This document shows, in pieces, positions 12,482-59,303 of a DNA stretch of 64,000 bases (its first letter is position 1; each line of letters starts with the position of its first letter). Under the pieces are notes generated by a model. The model was not told where the DNA came from, searched no databases, and saw only the letters and a list, made by a program, of their open reading frames with translations. The stretch covers positions 1,413,001 through 1,477,000 of the forward strand of contig NC_019676.1 of the NCBI RefSeq assembly GCF_000316625.1. Direction: 5' to 3'. The position numbers and the translations under genes are program-made. This stretch comes from Nostoc sp. PCC 7107 (lineage in GTDB: Bacteria > Cyanobacteriota > Cyanobacteriia > Cyanobacteriales > Nostocaceae).

Positions 12482-12596
12482 TTAGTAGTCATTAGTCAAT
12501 TGTCATTAGTCAATTGTTTTTACTTATTAATTACTTGTTAGCCTACTTGTGATACTCACTCTTGACTAGGGACTATTGACTCTTGACTATAAAGCT
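12482..12596. repeat. Short tandem repeats after the LCP gene
   Basis: Units based on CATTAGTCAATTG occur twice at about 12489-12516, and GACTATTGACTCTTGACTA-type units near 12564-12590. These are heptamer-type repeats of the cyanobacterial STRR class, without a gene. Confidence 0.55.
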
Positions 12597-12805
12597 ATGA
12601 AAAAGATTTGTCCGAGATTATCAAGTTTAACACAATCAAAGTTAACCCATTCCTCATAACTCACTAGTGAAGTTAGTAAAGTTATGAAAAAGATTTGGCT
12701 GAGATTATTAATTTTGGCACAATAAAATTTCAATCAGTCCTCATCATTAAGTAATGATGTACGTAAAGTTATGAAAAAGATTTGGCAGAAATTATTAAGT
12801 TTAAT
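12597..12805 (+). repeat. 87-bp tandem repeat containing the start region of the pentapeptide gene
   Basis: ATGAAAAAGATTTG occurs at 12597, 12684 and 12771, at exact 87-base intervals; the third copy is the real start of the following gene. The first two units align base for base over 87 positions with roughly three quarters identity, and both end TAAAGTT just before the next ATG. The first two copies can be read for 20 and 13 codons (MKKICPRLSS..., MKKIWLRLLILAQ) before a stop. A perfect palindrome CATCATTA-AG-TAATGATG lies in unit 2 at 12742-12759. Confidence 0.85.
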
Positions 12806-17657: not shown

Positions 17658-20600
17658 TTGCATATTAAGGTTGAAAAAATTACAAGCAAATTACCAATAA
17701 TTTTTCAACAAAATCAGGCAAAAGCTCTATCTCAAGTCAAAATATTAACAGCTATCAACATCATTTTAGGATTATATTTAATACCTGCAAAAGTCCAAGC
17801 CCAAAACATAACTCCCGCCAACGATAGTACAGGCACAACTGTTAACTCCCAAGGTGACATCAGTGGTGGTAAGCTCAGTAGCGACAAATCCAACCTATTC
17901 CACAGCTTCAGCAAATTTGAACTAGATGCTAACCAAACAGCCAACTTTTTATCGCAACCATCAATTCAAAACATCTTAGGTAGAGTCACAGGTGGTGAAG
18001 CATCGATAATTAACGGCATCATTCGTGTTAGTGGTGGAAATTCCAACTTATATTTAATCAACCCCGCAGGTATTATCTTTGGTGCTAATGCCCATTTAAA
18101 TGTGCCAGCATCATTCACAGCTACCACAGCTAATCGTCTGGGTTTTGGTAATAATAACTGGTTAAATGCTGTGGGCAGCAACAACTACAGCCAACTTATT
18201 GGTACACCCAATAGTTTCGCTTTTGATGCTAGTGTTACTAGTGCCATTTTCAATCAAGGTAATTTAGCTGTACCAAATGGTAATAATTTAAGTTTATTTG
18301 GCGGCGCAGTCGTGAGTACAGGAACTTTGTCAGCGCCTGGCGGTAATGTCACAATTGCGGCAGTACCTGGCAGTAATTTACTCAAATTGAGTATGGCAGG
18401 GAATCCTTTGAGTTTAGAAATTCAACCGCTGAATTCCACTAATAATCTAGCATCAAATTCGTTACCAGCATTGTTAACTGGTGGTGATGTTGGGAATGCT
18501 TCTGGCTTACAAATTGCAAATGGTGAGGTGAAGTTAACTGGTTCTGGTTTGACTATTAGCAATGGTGATGTTGTTAGTACAGCTAACATTGTTGCTCAAA
18601 ATGTCACTATTCAGGCAGCAGCTAATATCACAACTCAAGATATCATCACTAATGATAAATCTACTGGTTTGGCAGGTACAGTTAATTTAACAGCAGGTGA
18701 TAATATCACAACTAATAATATTGATGCTTCAGCTTTTAGTCGTTTTGAAACTGCTATGGCAGGTGCCGTTAATTTAACAGCAGGCGGTAATATTACAACT
18801 AATAATATTGACACTTCAGCAGCTTTAATTTTAGGGACGGCTAGTGCAGGTGCAGTCAATTTAATAGCTGATGGTAACATTACTGTGGGCAGCATCAATA
18901 CAAGTGCGATTAGTATTGATGTTGAGCAAATTGAATTGCTCAATGCAAATTCTCCAAATCAAGCTGGTATTTTGTTGCCCAATACACCCCCATTCGCTCA
19001 AGGTGGTAATGTTAATCTTTTAGCCAATGGAACAGTTAGGGTAGTAGGAGAAATTATTGATAATGGTCAGCTTACCGGAAATTCAATTTTGACCAGCGCA
19101 TTTACTCAACCTGGGGCTGTCAAGATTCAACATGACGGCGGTGTGAATAACGTTCCATTTATTGTGGGTGATGCTAACTTGAATGGTACAAAAGCAGCTA
19201 TTAATGTCAGTCAGGTTAGTCTTTTTAATGAAAATCCAACTATTGAAAATATCATCCTAGATAGCAACAATTCCCAAATTGCACCCACATCACCAATTCA
19301 CATTTTTCCTGTCCTTCCACTAGGCGGACGATCAGAAAGTACTCCTAGCTTAATTTCTATTAATTCTGTTAACACACCACCTATTATATTAGATAATTAT
19401 AGTGTAATTAATACGCGCCAAAATCGACCTATTACATTTACTTTTGGTTCATTAAATATCAATACTAATGATGTTAATAATGATGTCAGCCAAATAATTT
19501 TTGATGGTATATTATCTGGCTCTGTATCATTTCAAGATGGAACACCAGTTACATCAGGAACAGTGTTGAGTGCAAATACTGTTTTAGTTTATACTCCCCA
19601 ACGAGGTTCTGTTGGTAAAATCCCAGCTTTTAATATTAAAGCGAGTGATGGTGTTTCTGAATCTGCACCGCAATCAATCAATATTAATATTACGCGACAA
19701 CCCATAATTATTACCCCACCTAATCCTGACACAGATAATCCCTCACCTAATCCCGAAACAAATAATTCTCCTCCCGTAGAAACGAATAATTCTTTCCATT
19801 CCGGAACAAATAATCTGCTAAATATTGACTTAACTAATAATGTAGTTAATTCTGAGACAGAAGAAAAGAAAATGGCTAGTATTCCAATTGTGGAAAAAGA
19901 TCAGTCTTTGCTAGATGTAGATATAGATAAAGAGATAGCTAAAATTGATGCCAGATTTACTAACCAGTTTGCTCAATATTTAGGTACAGCTACACCGCCA
20001 ATTAAAGGCATTAAAGAAGCTAGTGAGATTTTAGTAAATATTGAAAATTCTACAGGGGTGAAACCTGCTTTAATTTATGTTTCTTTTATACCTAAAACAC
20101 TCAAACGGAATGTTTTACCGGAACAAAAACTCACACCTCAAGCCGATGATATTTTAGAGTTATTAGTGGTTACAGGTAAGGGTGAGCCGATTCGGAAAGT
20201 AGTTAATGTGACGCGATCGCAAGTCTTAGCTATAAGTAAACAGTTTACCAACAATGTTACCCAAGCAACTTTGTTAAACAGCTATATTACTCCTGCCACA
20301 AAATTATACAACTGGTTAATTGCACCCCTGAAGTATAACCTGCAAGCACGGCAAATTAATAATCTAGTTTTTATTGTAGATGCGGGTTTGCGAACTATGC
20401 CCATAGCCGCCCTTTATGATGGTAAACAGTATCTAATCGAAAACTATAGTGTTGGCTTAATGCCAAGTCTGAGCCTGACAGATACTCAATATATTGATAT
20501 TAAAAAATCTGAAGTTTTAGGGATGGGCGCATCGCAATTTATGAATCAAGACCCATTACCATCTGTACCTTCAGAATTAACTACTATTACTCAAAAGCTT

Positions 20601-39407: not shown

Positions 39408-39411
39408 CAAG

Positions 39412-39472
39412 ACTTAAAGGCAAAAGTTGTCTATTAAGAATGGATATTAAGATTTTGATAGACTTTATATCC
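39412..39472 (+). repeat. Uninterrupted copy of the IS630 target sequence
   Basis: This 61-base stretch occurs a second time, split: bases 39412-39449 equal 39627-39664, and 39450-39472 equal 41219-41241. The split falls at TA, exactly where the 1.55-kb insertion 39665-41216 begins and ends. It therefore serves as an empty-site reference. Confidence 0.85.
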
Positions 39473-39509
39473 CAATACCGTTCAGTTAAGACTAAAAACC
39501 AATTCTGGC

Positions 39510-39615
39510 GTAGGTTGGGTTGAGGAACGTAGACACGCTCCGCGCGGCTTCTCGAAGCGTAACCCAACATCCGAGCATACTTTGTTGGGTTACGCTATCG
39601 CTCCACCCAACCTAC
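39510..39615. repeat. Nested inverted repeat, cyanobacterial intergenic type
   Basis: Outer arms GTAGGTTGGGT (39510-39520) and ACCCAACCTAC (39605-39615); inner arms AGCGTAACCCAACA (39556-39569) and TGTTGGGTTACGCT (39583-39596). It also contains a GACACGCTCCGCGCGGCTTCTC-like GC-rich segment near 39532. It lies between the two copies of the 61-base direct repeat. Confidence 0.75.
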
Positions 39616-39730
39616 TTTTCTGCTTAACTTAAAGGCAAAAGTTGTCTATTAAGAATGGATATTATAGCTGTAGCCAATAAGATTAGGACATAAACTATGA
39701 AGTATTCCTAGTATTGCGATTCAAACTCAG

Positions 39731-40117
39731 ATGGCTAAACCCTATAGTGATGATTTCCGGCAAAAGGTGATGCAAGCAATTGAGTTGGACGGTCTCAAAA
39801 AGAGTGAGGCGAGCCAATTGTTCAATATCAGTCGCAATACGATTAACTTGTGGTGTCAAAGAAAAGCCCAAACGGGTGATATCAAGGTCAAATCGAGGCA
39901 GGAATGCCAAAGGGGTGGCAAAATCGATGATTGGGAGAAGTTTCGCGCATTTGTCAAAGCAAATGGTGATAAAACTCAAGTCCAAATGGTAGAGTTATGG
40001 GAAGGAGAGATTAGTCAACGCACGATTTCACGGGCATTGCAGAAAATTGGACACACCCGTAAAAAAAAACATATGGCTACTGTCAACGAGATGAAGCCAA
40101 ACGAGCAACCTTTCTAG
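39731..40117 (+). CDS. IS630-family transposase, N-terminal frame
   Basis: 128 residues. MAKPYSDDFRQKVMQAIE...KSEASQLFNISRNTINLW is the helix-turn-helix DNA-binding part, followed by a second HTH-like segment (DKTQVQMVELWEGEISQRTISRALQKIG). Similarity to the family ends after HTRKKK; a -1 shift on the A9 run at 40061-40069 leads into TYGYCQRDEAKRATFLAQL and the catalytic frame. Confidence 0.85.
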   Translation: MAKPYSDDFRQKVMQAIELDGLKKSEASQLFNISRNTINLWCQRKAQTGDIKVKSRQECQRGGKIDDWEKFRAFVKANGDKTQVQMVELWEGEISQRTISRALQKIGHTRKKKHMATVNEMKPNEQPF

Positions 40118-40146
40118 CACAACTGAAGAACCCAAAAGCACCACAC

Positions 40147-40608
40147 TTGGTTTATGTCGATGAATCGGGAATGGATGAACGAGATAACTACGGCTATGGG
40201 TACTCACCAACAGGGGAACGATTTTACGACCTCAAATCCGGTCGGCGACAGGGACGCATTAACATGATTGCTGGGTATCGGGATAATCAATTGATTGCCC
40301 CATTTACAGTCGAGGGGGCGTGTAACCGCACAGTGTTTGAAACCTGGCTAGAAACATGTTTGATTCCGGTTTTGCGTCCCGGTGAGTGGGTAATTGTGGA
40401 TAATGCGACGTTTCATCATGGTGGTCGAATTGCCCAACTCATACATGATGCAGGCTGTGAACTTGTTTATTTACCTCCCTATTCACCAGACCTTAATCGT
40501 ATTGAGAAGTGTTGGGCATGGTTAAAAAGTAGGATTCGCAAACAATTACACAATTGTGATCATTTACGTGATGCTATCGAATTCGTTCTCAAGCACGCAG
40601 CGTCCTAA
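40147..40608 (+). CDS. IS630-family transposase, catalytic frame
   Basis: The DDE catalytic domain: LVYVDESGMD, WVIVDNATFHHG and YSPDLNRIEKCWAWLKSRIR give the two Asp and the Glu. The frame is open from about 40062, so the domain joins the upstream frame by -1 slippage on nine A. Both frames look intact, so an active enzyme is possible. Confidence 0.87.
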   Translation: MVYVDESGMDERDNYGYGYSPTGERFYDLKSGRRQGRINMIAGYRDNQLIAPFTVEGACNRTVFETWLETCLIPVLRPGEWVIVDNATFHHGGRIAQLIHDAGCELVYLPPYSPDLNRIEKCWAWLKSRIRKQLHNCDHLRDAIEFVLKHAAS

Positions 40609-40733
40609 TAAAACTGGCTATAGCTATAAAAGGCAAAGGGCAAAAGTAAGAAGTAGATTTCCTCGTTGCCTGTTTGCCCCGATAACCTAAAGTTTCGCTA
40701 AGATCAGAGTGTTTACTTATATGTGGTCAAGTT

Positions 40734-41105
40734 GTGGCTACTATATCTTGTCCCCGTTGCCATCAAACTGTTGAGAGTCAGGCTATTACCTGTCCTTATT
40801 GCCGAACCACACTCAAAGCCTTCGGCCATCCCGGTATTCCATTGTATCGTGCTACCGGGGACGAGTATTTGTGCGATCGCTGCACCTACCACGCAGACGA
40901 TACTTGCAACTTTCCTCAGCGTCCCTACGCCAAAGAATGTACCCTTTATCAAAACATTGCCGAATACAAGTTACAGCAAGAACAGCAGCATCATAACAGC
41001 AGTTTTGGCACAACTTTTCAAGGTTGGGTAAAACGTAATCAAACTTGGCTATTATTAGTTGGTTTATTACTCATTTGTTTAGTTATCGCTGTGGCGACAT
41101 CTTAA
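40734..41105 (+). CDS. Zinc-ribbon membrane protein, passenger copy 1
   Basis: 123 residues, GTG start. Residues 5-25 form a zinc ribbon (CPRCHQTVESQAITCPYC). A second Cys cluster, CDRCTYHADDTCNFPQRPYAKECTLY, follows at about 43-68, then a Gln/His-rich linker and one C-terminal membrane helix (WLLLVGLLLICLVIAVA), giving a tail-anchored protein with a cytoplasmic zinc head. Function unknown. The protein is identical to the one at 58811-59182. It lies between the IS630 right end and an IS630-like terminal sequence, and so appears to have been carried as a passenger. A heptamer repeat array with six units follows. Confidence 0.82.
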   Translation: MATISCPRCHQTVESQAITCPYCRTTLKAFGHPGIPLYRATGDEYLCDRCTYHADDTCNFPQRPYAKECTLYQNIAEYKLQQEQQHHNSSFGTTFQGWVKRNQTWLLLVGLLLICLVIAVATS

Positions 41106-41112
41106 ATATAGC

Positions 41113-41154
41113 AGGAGGCAGGAGGCAGGAGGCAGAAGGCAGGAGGCAGAAGGA
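41113..41154 (+). repeat. Heptamer tandem repeat, six units
   Basis: AGGAGGC x3, AGAAGGC, AGGAGGC, AGAAGGA. The duplicate locus at 59190-59224 has five units, lacking one AGGAGGC. Confidence 0.85.
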
Positions 41155-41286
41155 AAAGTCTTATTATTCCTGGCGTTCAAGCTTTCAAATTGTCCCAACA
41201 GACCTGACTACTGCTATAAGATTTTGATAGACTTTATATCCAATTTGCCTTTAAAATACACTAAATCGATAGAAATAGTGTATTTT

Positions 41287-41748
41287 ATGGAAAGCGCCCA
41301 AAAAGCTAGTCAAGAGTTGAGTTTATCAGTAAATACAGCCCCAGAGCGATCGCCACAGACTGTTCCTCACGAATCCCCAAAAAATATCTTCAAAAAGCTC
41401 AGAGGTGGATTCCTACTGGTTTTGGGATATTTATTATCCCCTTTATGTTGGTGGAATGACCTTTTATTCAATTTACCCATTGCTTACTTTTTTGGGTACT
41501 TATGTAGTTTACTTTCCCCGAAATTGCTCATTCCTTGTTCCATTATAGGTTACTGGCTCTCCAATGTTGTGGGAATCCTGTTGATACAATATGGCTCTAA
41601 GGATATCTTTCAAAAAGATTCTCAAGAGCGTAACCTCAAAAAAGAATTGTTATCAGGTTTAGTTTCTTCCACAATTTATACTCTGGTGATTATTGTATTG
41701 ATTCAATTGAAGATTCTTGATTTTCCTGTATTGTTTGCCAAGAGTTAA
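41287..41748 (+). CDS. Small membrane protein of unknown function
   Basis: 153 residues from MESAQKASQEL at 41287; the open frame begins at 41224, but that part is the target-repeat sequence flanking the insertion. A 45-residue polar N-terminus is followed by three hydrophobic segments (FLLVLGYLLSPLCWWNDLLF, YFFGYLCSLLSPKLLIPCSIIGYWL, LVSSTIYTLVIIVLIQLKIL). No family recognised. The composite insertion ends 70 bp upstream and may have displaced its promoter. Confidence 0.65.
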   Translation: MESAQKASQELSLSVNTAPERSPQTVPHESPKNIFKKLRGGFLLVLGYLLSPLCWWNDLLFNLPIAYFFGYLCSLLSPKLLIPCSIIGYWLSNVVGILLIQYGSKDIFQKDSQERNLKKELLSGLVSSTIYTLVIIVLIQLKILDFPVLFAKS

Positions 41749-57006: not shown

Positions 57007-57042
57007 TTTTTGTATCTCTACAAAAACTATTTTCGAGCGAAA

Positions 57043-57075
57043 AGATCCTCGACTTCTCAAAGAAGTCAGGAATCT
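57043..57075. repeat. 33-bp hairpin repeat, copy C
   Basis: AGATCCTCGACTTCT...AGAAGTCAGGAATCT: 15-base arms with two or three mismatches, between the Uma2 gene and ilvA. Same family as copies A, B and D. Confidence 0.75.
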
Positions 57076-57132
57076 GAGTACACAAGTGCCGTAAAATTAA
57101 CATCTATATGGCATCTGCTAACCTTTGACACC

Positions 57133-58644
57133 ATGCTTTGCGACTATCTAGTACAAATACTGACCGCCCGTGTGTACGATGTTGCCCAAGAAACCCCACT
57201 GGAGTATGCCCCGAATCTCTCTCAAAGGCTGAATAATCAGCTGCTATTAAAGCGGGAAGATATGCAGTCGGTGTTTTCTTTCAAGCTGCGGGGTGCATAT
57301 AACAAGATGGTAAACTTACCGCCGGATTTGTTAGCACAAGGTGTCATTGCGGCTTCGGCGGGAAATCATGCCCAAGGTGTAGCTTTATCAGCCAGTCGTT
57401 TAGGAACAACTGCTATTATTGTGATGCCTGTTACAACACCCCAGGTAAAGATAGATGCAGTTAAAGCTAGGGGTGGAAAGGTTGTCTTGCATGGCAATAC
57501 TTACGATGACGCATACACTTACGCGCGACAATTAGAAGCCGAAAAAGGCTTAACTTTTATTCATCCTTTTGATGACCCTGATGTGATTGCGGGACAGGGA
57601 ACCATCGGGATGGAAATCTTACGCCAATACCAGCAACCCATTCATGCAATTTTTGTCGCTATTGGTGGCGGTGGTTTGATTTCGGGAATTGGGGCGTATG
57701 TGAAACGGTTGCGTCCAGAAATTAAAATTATAGGTGTGGAACCTGTCGATGCTGACGCGATGCACCAATCATTAAAAGCCGGGAAACGGGTGCGGCTGTC
57801 GCAAGTTGGTTTGTTTGCTGATGGGGTAGCAGTGCGGGAAGTCGGGGAAGAAACATTCCGCCTGTGCCAAGAATATGTAGATGAAATTATTTTGGTGGAT
57901 ACCGATGACACCTGTGCGGCAATTAAAGATGTATTTGAAGATACGCGTTCTATTTTAGAACCTGCGGGGGCATTGGCGATCGCAGCGGCTAAAGCCTACG
58001 TCGAACGCGAACAAATTCAAGGACAAACTTTAGTTGCTGTGGCTTGCGGTGCAAATATGAACTTTGACCGCCTGCGCTTTGTCGCTGAACGCGCCGAATT
58101 AGGCGAACGCCGCGAAGCGATATTTGCAGTCGCCATTCCCGAAGAACAAGGTAGTCTGCGGAAGTTTTGCGAATGTATTGGTCAACGCAACTTAACTGAG
58201 TTTAATTATCGCATCGCCGATGAAAAAGAAGCCCATATTTTTGTCGGTGTGCAGATTCAAAACCGCGCCGACAAAGCCAAGATGATCGAAACCTTTGAAA
58301 ATTGCGGCTTTAAAACAATCGATTTAACCGATGATGAACTGACAAAATTACACTTACGCCACATGGTAGGCGGACATTCACCCCTCGCCCACAATGAATT
58401 ACTGTATCGGTTTGAATTTCCCGAACGTCCTGGTGCATTGATGAAGTTTGTCGGTTCCATGAGTCCCAACTGGAATATCAGTATGTTCCACTATCGCAAC
58501 AACGGCGCAGACTATGGGCGCATTGTTGTAGGTATGCAGGTACCACCTCATGAAATGCAAAAATGGCAAGCTTTTCTCGATACCCTTGGTTATCAGTATT
58601 GGGATGAAAGCCAAAATTTGGCATATAAATTATTTTTGGGATAG
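57133..58644 (+). CDS. ilvA: Threonine ammonia-lyase, biosynthetic
   Basis: 503 residues from ATG 57133 (MLCDYLVQILTARVYDVA); the frame is open 41 codons further, but this covers the hairpin repeat. PLP-binding Lys51 in SVFSFKLRGAYNKM, the substrate loop ASAGNHAQG and the Gly-rich phosphate loop GGGGLISGI identify a type II-fold threonine deaminase. Two C-terminal ACT-like regulatory domains (residues about 325-503, EQGSLRKFCECIG and ERPGALMKFVG) show the isoleucine-regulated biosynthetic form. It makes 2-oxobutanoate for isoleucine. Confidence 0.95.
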   Translation: MLCDYLVQILTARVYDVAQETPLEYAPNLSQRLNNQLLLKREDMQSVFSFKLRGAYNKMVNLPPDLLAQGVIAASAGNHAQGVALSASRLGTTAIIVMPVTTPQVKIDAVKARGGKVVLHGNTYDDAYTYARQLEAEKGLTFIHPFDDPDVIAGQGTIGMEILRQYQQPIHAIFVAIGGGGLISGIGAYVKRLRPEIKIIGVEPVDADAMHQSLKAGKRVRLSQVGLFADGVAVREVGEETFRLCQEYVDEIILVDTDDTCAAIKDVFEDTRSILEPAGALAIAAAKAYVEREQIQGQTLVAVACGANMNFDRLRFVAERAELGERREAIFAVAIPEEQGSLRKFCECIGQRNLTEFNYRIADEKEAHIFVGVQIQNRADKAKMIETFENCGFKTIDLTDDELTKLHLRHMVGGHSPLAHNELLYRFEFPERPGALMKFVGSMSPNWNISMFHYRNNGADYGRIVVGMQVPPHEMQKWQAFLDTLGYQYWDESQNLAYKLFLG

Positions 58645-58650
58645 TACAAC

Positions 58651-58733
58651 AAGGCAAAAGTAAAAAGTAAAAAGGTAAAAGGCAAAGGGCAAAAGTAAAA
58701 AGTAAAAAGTAAAAAGGCAAAAGTAAGAAGTAG
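58651..58733 (+). repeat. Heptamer tandem repeats after ilvA
   Basis: Units AAAAGTA / AAAAGGC / AAAGGGC in series. The duplicate at 40627-40655 has four heptamers (28 bases) fewer. Confidence 0.8.
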
Positions 58734-58810
58734 ATTTCCTCGTTGCCTGTTTGCCCCGATAACCTAAAGTTTCGCTAAGATCAGAGTGTTTACTTATATG
58801 TGGTCAAGTT

Positions 58811-59182
58811 GTGGCTACTATATCTTGTCCCCGTTGCCATCAAACTGTTGAGAGTCAGGCTATTACCTGTCCTTATTGCCGAACCACACTCAAAGCCTTC
58901 GGCCATCCCGGTATTCCATTGTATCGTGCTACCGGGGACGAGTATTTGTGCGATCGCTGCACCTACCACGCAGACGATACTTGCAACTTTCCTCAGCGTC
59001 CCTACGCCAAAGAATGTACCCTTTATCAAAACATTGCCGAATACAAGTTACAGCAAGAACAGCAGCATCATAACAGCAGTTTTGGCACAACTTTTCAAGG
59101 TTGGGTAAAACGTAATCAAACTTGGCTATTATTAGTTGGTTTATTACTCATTTGTTTAGTTATCGCTGTGGCGACATCTTAA
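58811..59182 (+). CDS. Zinc-ribbon membrane protein, copy 2
   Basis: 123 residues, the same protein as at 40734-41105: N-terminal CPRC...CPYC zinc ribbon, second cluster CDRCTYH...CNFP...CTLY, C-terminal membrane helix. Because the IS630 element is absent here and the block lies in a plausible original setting after ilvA, this is the likely older copy (inference). The identity of two copies, with shared silent positions and flanks, shows that the duplication is recent. Confidence 0.82.
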   Translation: MATISCPRCHQTVESQAITCPYCRTTLKAFGHPGIPLYRATGDEYLCDRCTYHADDTCNFPQRPYAKECTLYQNIAEYKLQQEQQHHNSSFGTTFQGWVKRNQTWLLLVGLLLICLVIAVATS

Positions 59183-59189
59183 ATATAGC

Positions 59190-59224
59190 AGGAGGCAGGA
59201 GGCAGAAGGCAGGAGGCAGAAGGA
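59190..59224 (+). repeat. Heptamer tandem repeat, five units
   Basis: AGGAGGC x2, AGAAGGC, AGGAGGC, AGAAGGA; one unit fewer than the otherwise identical array at 41113-41154. Confidence 0.85.
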
Positions 59225-59303
59225 AAAGTCTTATTATTCCTGGCGTTCAAGCTTTCAAATTGTCCCAACAGACCTGACTACTGCTATAAAAGATGCTTAT
59301 TAG

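Follow-up and report, generated by a model that had tools for sequence, protein, structure and literature searches.

A probable composite of an IS630 element and a MITE behind the second copy of a zinc-ribbon gene in Nostoc sp. PCC 7107

Introduction

How does a chromosomal gene come to lie inside what appears to be a single transposed unit, when the one complete element in that unit is an IS630-type insertion sequence? The question is raised by a locus of Nostoc sp. PCC 7107 within the window analysed here, a 64,000-nt stretch of DNA (positions 1413001-1477000 of a single-contig 6.33-Mb genome, 99.99% complete), where a zinc-ribbon gene follows an IS630 element and both lie within the same outer boundaries. 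To our knowledge IS630 elements have not been known as gene carriers, and miniature inverted-repeat elements (MITEs) are usually viewed as passive derivatives, mobile either singly or as pairs of identical copies. For the IS630/Tc1/mariner group a useful reference is ISY100 of Synechocystis, described as an element of ~950 bp with a helix-turn-helix (HTH) and DDE transposase that inserts at TA and duplicates it, with the transposase as the sole protein needed, and of which mini-elements retaining 30 bp of each end equal the full element in function (PMC2170065). A sequence-only reading of the window had proposed that IS630 landed beside the gene and that both moved together, by one-ended recognition, from the left end of the IS to a pseudo-end beyond the gene. 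Here we examine which ends were used, where the gene came from and how the locus looks in related genomes.

Results

The locus is defined by a 61-bp sequence at 39412-39472, which recurs in two pieces further along the forward strand. Base-by-base comparison showed that its first 38 nt are identical to 39627-39664 and its last 25 nt to 41217-41241, that the two pieces overlap by two bases (38+25-61=2), which are TA, and that the match gains no further base on either side. Because the 61-mer is split with an exact TA overlap, 39665-41216 is one TA-flanked insertion of 1552 bp on the forward strand, consisting of the IS630 element, the zinc-ribbon gene and a MITE; both the split at TA and the single insertion had been claimed from the sequence, and both are borne out. 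The left flank ends in the target TA (39663-39664), the right flank consists of the second copy of the target TA followed by 5' sequence of the gene downstream, and the unoccupied 61-bp duplicate of the target at 39412-39472 serves as an exact empty site within the window. Between the two target copies (region 39408-39626) lies a 154-bp stretch of a dispersed repeat, with a 91% match at locus L011. The intergenic region that holds the target copies contains an 89-aa reverse-strand ORF in the related genome G002, which is missing here.

The first part of the insertion is a full-length IS630-family element of 962 bp (39665-40626, forward strand) with TA at 39663-39664 and 40627-40628, which confirms the earlier placing of its right end at 40626; the second of these TAs is internal to the insertion and separates the right end of the IS from the passenger block. 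Its ends, TATAGCTGTAGCC and TATAGCTATAGCC (the first TA being the target), agree at 22 of 28 positions. The transposase matches HTH_Tnp_IS630 (PF01710, 6.7e-13) and DDE_3 (PF13358, 1.4e-39) and also NF033545 above its cut-off, and this HTH and DDE architecture, together with terminal inverted repeats and a TA target that is duplicated on insertion, places the element among IS630/Tc1-mariner. Seven near-identical copies are present in the genome, window copy included; the six others all stand alone with TA on both sides (6/6, by eye), as is the case for two related full-length copies that are 77% identical (2/2, by eye).

The transposase is read in two frames, 39731-40117 and 40147-40608 (39731-40608 in all, forward strand), broken at a run of nine A at 40061-40069. 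The same split at the A-run occurs in all seven copies, five of which have A9 and two A8. The A8 copies do not encode a fused transposase, as neither A8 nor A9 is in frame. Since the split is common to all seven copies, an active enzyme needs either slippage or supply in trans, and it must be assumed that the transposase would have come from slippage or with help from the two 77% identical full-length copies. The seven copies are otherwise almost identical, which indicates that they have probably spread recently.

Beyond the IS630 element the insertion continues for 588 bp (40629-41216), a block that had been recognised before as carrying a zinc-ribbon gene and given as 592 bp; it matches the interval between ilvA (57010-58644, start uncertain) and egtD at 58.7-59.3 kb. 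The passenger block itself (40629-41108, forward strand) corresponds to the 5' region and zinc-ribbon gene of this interval, and holds a second, intact copy of the gene with a GTG start and a product of 123 aa (40734-41105, forward strand), the native copy lying downstream of ilvA at 58811-59182 (forward strand). Alignment of donor and copy revealed no substitutions; they differ in length alone, by a deletion of 28 bp (four heptads) within the 7-bp tandem array that precedes the gene and by a single additional heptad in the MITE. This array spans 58651-58732 (forward strand) at the native locus, and its TA at 58676-58677 is the probable landing site of IS630, the exact donor TA being inferred because the two arrays differ by those 28 bp. 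The native locus holds the zinc-ribbon gene and a MITE without IS630. The donor block that had been drawn at 58676-59288 is indeed free of IS630 and bounded by TA, but only its right side carries a transposon end, its left TA being unremarkable.

The zinc-ribbon protein gives DZR and Zn_ribbon_3 matches, both slightly under the Pfam cut-off, and has a C-terminal stretch that resembles a membrane helix (by eye). Of the 192 family genomes searched, 165 have the gene (E up to 1e-10), 163 of them with a single match; more than one match was found in this genome and in G094, a 12.7-Mb assembly with 38% contamination. As a single match is the rule in 163 of the 165 genomes having the gene, the second copy here is derived. 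Among ten relatives from the genus, ilvA adjoins the gene in eight (the exceptions being G003 and G004), and in a wider collection it lies within 3 kb at 6 of 29 named loci, which makes the linkage a feature of the genus rather than the family. Named loci with a zinc-ribbon protein at least 85% identical and ilvA as neighbour number six, five from Nostoc and one from Fortiea.

The last part of the insertion is a 108-bp IS630-type MITE (41109-41216, reverse strand), whose inner end is a GCAGRAG heptad array and whose outer end at 41216 coincides exactly with the right boundary of the insertion and forms the distal transposon end. Its counterpart at the native locus (59186-59286, reverse strand) is 101 bp long, has TA at 59184-59185 and 59287-59288, and is identical apart from the one heptad, while the aligned parts of other genomic copies diverge from the window copy by ~7-19%. 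A genome search with the insertion, for which 40 of 180 first-look candidates were scored, gave at least 25 further matches to its last ~70-110 bp, and 22 of 25 end at the TA or next to it, within 41216-41220. When the 25 further loci were examined, 23 aligned from the outer end and 17 showed a GCTAT[AG] closure within 330 bp, the others looking decayed or truncated at the inner end. Members of the family start at the outer end with TATAGC(G/A)GTAGTCAGATATGTTAGGACA, followed by a short core and, on the inner side, by a tandem array of 7-bp units that is closed off by TATAGC, so that both termini begin with TATAGC. Being short, without a transposase and dispersed in copies bounded by TA, these sequences have the properties of MITEs. 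Allowing up to three mismatches, the outer-end pattern has 25 occurrences in this genome, two of them in the window, whereas a reversed-pattern control has 0; the pattern is present in 10 of 11 genus genomes. The outer end agrees with the IS630 left end at 19 of 28 positions and with the right end at 20 of 28. The third, more divergent IS630-like end that had been noticed beyond the gene is therefore a related end as proposed, but at both the copy and the donor it forms the outer terminus of a multi-copy MITE and is not a pseudo-end.

A weight matrix built from seven distinct ends of the IS630 subfamily was applied to the 9308 TA sites of the window. The two IS630 ends, both in the training set, took ranks 1 and 2, and the two MITE outer ends, both outside it, took ranks 3 and 4, which relates this family of MITEs to the IS630 elements of the genome. 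The MITE inner end and the left boundary of the passenger scored far below the outer ends: 31 (donor) or 85 (copy) TA sites score at least as high as the inner end, and 2892 (donor, 58676-58677) or 1504 (copy) of the 9308 score at least as high as the left boundary. Judged by its sequence, the left boundary of the donor block is without terminal-repeat character.

One related genome preserves the native locus as it would have been without the MITE. In G002, the only relative with homologous sequence beyond the zinc-ribbon gene, the interval runs from ilvA through the gene and a single TA to the egtD side, has no MITE and, next to the TA, lacks one A that this genome has. Because the MITE is absent from the same place in G002, it reached the native locus by a separate event; as far as aligned genomes can establish a step of this kind, the comparison shows the arrival of the MITE in the ilvA-egtD interval, most likely after the split from G002 and before the gene copy was made. 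In seven other relatives with ilvA adjoining the gene, no such MITE was found directly after it, but these are not strict empty sites, since their downstream DNA is not homologous; one of the relatives, G005, carries a different MITE ~90 bp further downstream of the gene.

At the target, the insertion lies in the 5' region of a gene at 41287-41748 (forward strand) that has no Pfam or NCBIfam match. The target point is uninterrupted in G002 (93%) and G005 (90%) over 28-29 bp, corresponding to 39444-39471/2, a match that crosses the insertion point and has 4 bases on its left side. The earlier expectation that the 61-bp repeat would be met in relatives holds for this part and not for the full repeat; the left part of the 61-mer was not found in the relatives, and the target duplication was seen solely in this genome. 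Upstream of the target gene no such IS630 or zinc-ribbon gene was found in any of the six genus relatives surveyed (G002, G003, G005, G007, G008 and G009, the remaining four of the ten, G001, G004, G006 and G010, lying outside this survey).

Discussion

Our preferred reading, to which we give a probability of about 0.85, is that the IS630 element and the MITE flanking the zinc-ribbon gene were transposed together as an accidental, asymmetric composite transposon, which placed a second copy of the gene ~18 kb away. A MITE would have entered a TA just 3' of the gene with its strong outer end facing away from it, and IS630 would later have landed, on one copy of the chromosome, at a TA of the 7-bp array upstream. 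To judge from the junctions, an IS630-type transposase would then have brought together the left end of the IS and the outer end of the MITE, bypassing the right end of the IS and the weak inner end of the MITE, which were left inside the unit, and the IS-gene-MITE unit would have inserted at a TA within the 5' region of the 41287 gene. Transposition with the two outer ends paired in this way gives exactly the unit and the junctions observed. The product, a TA-flanked insertion of 1552 bp, gives the genome another intact copy of a gene that is normally single-copy. Because the distal end is a MITE end and the MITE arrived separately, the event is best described as two-ended transposition of an accidental IS-gene-MITE composite. 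The one-ended recognition of the sequence-only reading is replaced by the use of two ends, whereas its other elements, IS630 beside the gene, a joint move from the IS left end to an end beyond the gene and a donor kept in the window, are retained.

Most of these steps appear to be preserved in the genomes themselves: the MITE-empty site, the target-empty site, the donor and the product can be aligned, as can both outer junctions and the similarity of the ends. Three parts of the account we infer, namely the intermediate with IS630 at the donor TA, which was found in none of the genomes searched, the identity of the enzyme, and the reason why the donor is now free of IS630. Cyanobacterial cells commonly contain several chromosome copies. 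The IS-less donor would have persisted if the donor insertion was never fixed, and either an unfixed insertion among several chromosome copies or a lateral import would suffice to explain it.

Every alternative either calls for a further coincidence or is at odds with the MITE family. Homologous recombination, in which the one target TA received first IS630 and then a MITE beside it, and gene conversion with an IS-gene-MITE donor copied in the gene, draws on the fact that IS630 and the MITE are both multi-copy repeats and offer homology on both sides; we regard it as unlikely, since it requires that one TA was hit twice independently and that the MITE came to adjoin the IS end directly, an arrangement seen at the right TA of none of the eight other full-length subfamily IS copies (0/8, by eye), and since the target and donor MITEs are far more alike than the dispersed copies are. 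It is very unlikely that there were two transpositions, the block of zinc-ribbon gene and MITE moving first by a cryptic left end and IS630 inserting later in the boundary TA. The left boundary of the block does lie at a TA, the target of IS630, but its surroundings contain nothing end-like by the matrix scores given above, and the later IS630 insertion would have needed to fall on precisely this TA.

The greater divergence of the distal end from the IS ends (19-20 of 28 positions, against 22 of 28 between the IS ends) speaks for a chance pseudo-end used with the IS630 left end in one-ended transposition, as in ISEcp1, an explanation that becomes highly improbable once the distal end is seen to come from a dispersed MITE family whose site is empty in G002. 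We attach hardly any weight to an assembly artefact, or to the entire target region having been acquired laterally from a sister strain with the composite. The comparison comprised one genome per species, without a sister strain, and the donor intermediate was not seen, which leaves room for either; yet the assembly is a single, nearly complete contig, TA/TA junctions with an exact empty site are not expected from misassembly, and import would shift the event to another strain with the mechanism unchanged.

The composite reading can be set beside several known systems. In classical composite transposons of the Tn5/Tn10 type, a passenger is bounded by two copies of the same IS; here too the outer ends are used, the inner ends bypassed and the passenger moved, but IS630 stands on one side only and a MITE on the other. 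ISEcp1 mobilises its neighbours by one-ended transposition with alternative right ends. For IS801, one-ended transposition is described in which adjacent DNA is moved by one IS end (PMC3189936). Like both of these, the IS630 element would move adjacent DNA using one of its own ends; unlike them, it would have as its second end a recognisable, related terminal repeat from a multi-copy MITE and not an arbitrary or weak site. Comparable in the use of a miniature element as a transposon end beside a passenger gene are composites described as bounded by miniature elements, with the transposase provided by a full element (PMC13367494, PMC10969869), among them TIME-COMPs, in which two copies of one Tn3-derived MITE bound the passenger (PMC13367494). 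As described there, they differ from the present case, which has a single, different and asymmetric MITE at one end and a full IS630 at the other. The element shares with ISY100 a length near 950 bp, the HTH and DDE transposase and insertion at TA with its duplication, and departs from it in that the mobile unit measures 1552 bp, carries a host gene and has a distal end from a MITE. In Anabaena sp. 90, 147 MITEs are described that bear no evident resemblance to the genome's own IS ends (PMC3542288), unlike the MITE here, which resembles IS ends. Among the matches listed in a search of open-access titles and abstract beginnings, there was no report of an IS630-MITE composite moving a gene.

What this implies beyond one locus is less certain. 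A full IS and a MITE similar to it at one end only are indicated to have cooperated in copying an ordinary chromosomal gene, which suggests a simple route by which IS630 could duplicate host genes and predicts which genes are at risk. We tentatively raise the possibility, itself rather doubtful, that dispersed IS630-type MITEs are ready-made distal ends, and that IS and MITEs form a distributed composite-transposon system duplicating single-copy host genes; if this were true, any gene between a fresh IS630 insertion and an outward-facing MITE would become mobilisable in one step. The number of moved composites found is one, and the event may be rare. A scan of this genome with the one MITE family (25 outer ends) placed no listed end within 5 kb of the eight other full-length subfamily IS copies, the nearest being 10.8 kb away (positions compared by eye). 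In G009, a gene resembling D-Ala-D-Ala dipeptidase (named by eye from sequence) lies between two different MITEs whose outward-facing outer ends are 1.1 kb apart (L125, 1496-2619, in G009:C66). The gene has not moved, given that the neighbouring gene order is the same in relatives, and on this comparison the case is a loaded but unmoved composite, which counts as a negative for generality.

Heptad arrays are a recurrent part of these asymmetric MITEs, with units of the types GCAGRAG, TCAAAAG or TGCTGAG (window copies; L016-L035, L046-L050, L125-L132). Of 38 matches to the MITE pattern, which include a few loose ones or the same element read twice, 29 reach a closing GCTAT[AG] in no more than 330 bp, and a heptad periodicity of 12/16 is attained by 17 of these 29. 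Judging from these arrays, the heptad repeats of Nostoc may be tied to MITE ends. The window also contains two longer-period tandem arrays, at 12590-12804 and 18671-18883, whose consensus units differ while the period is 87 bp in both.
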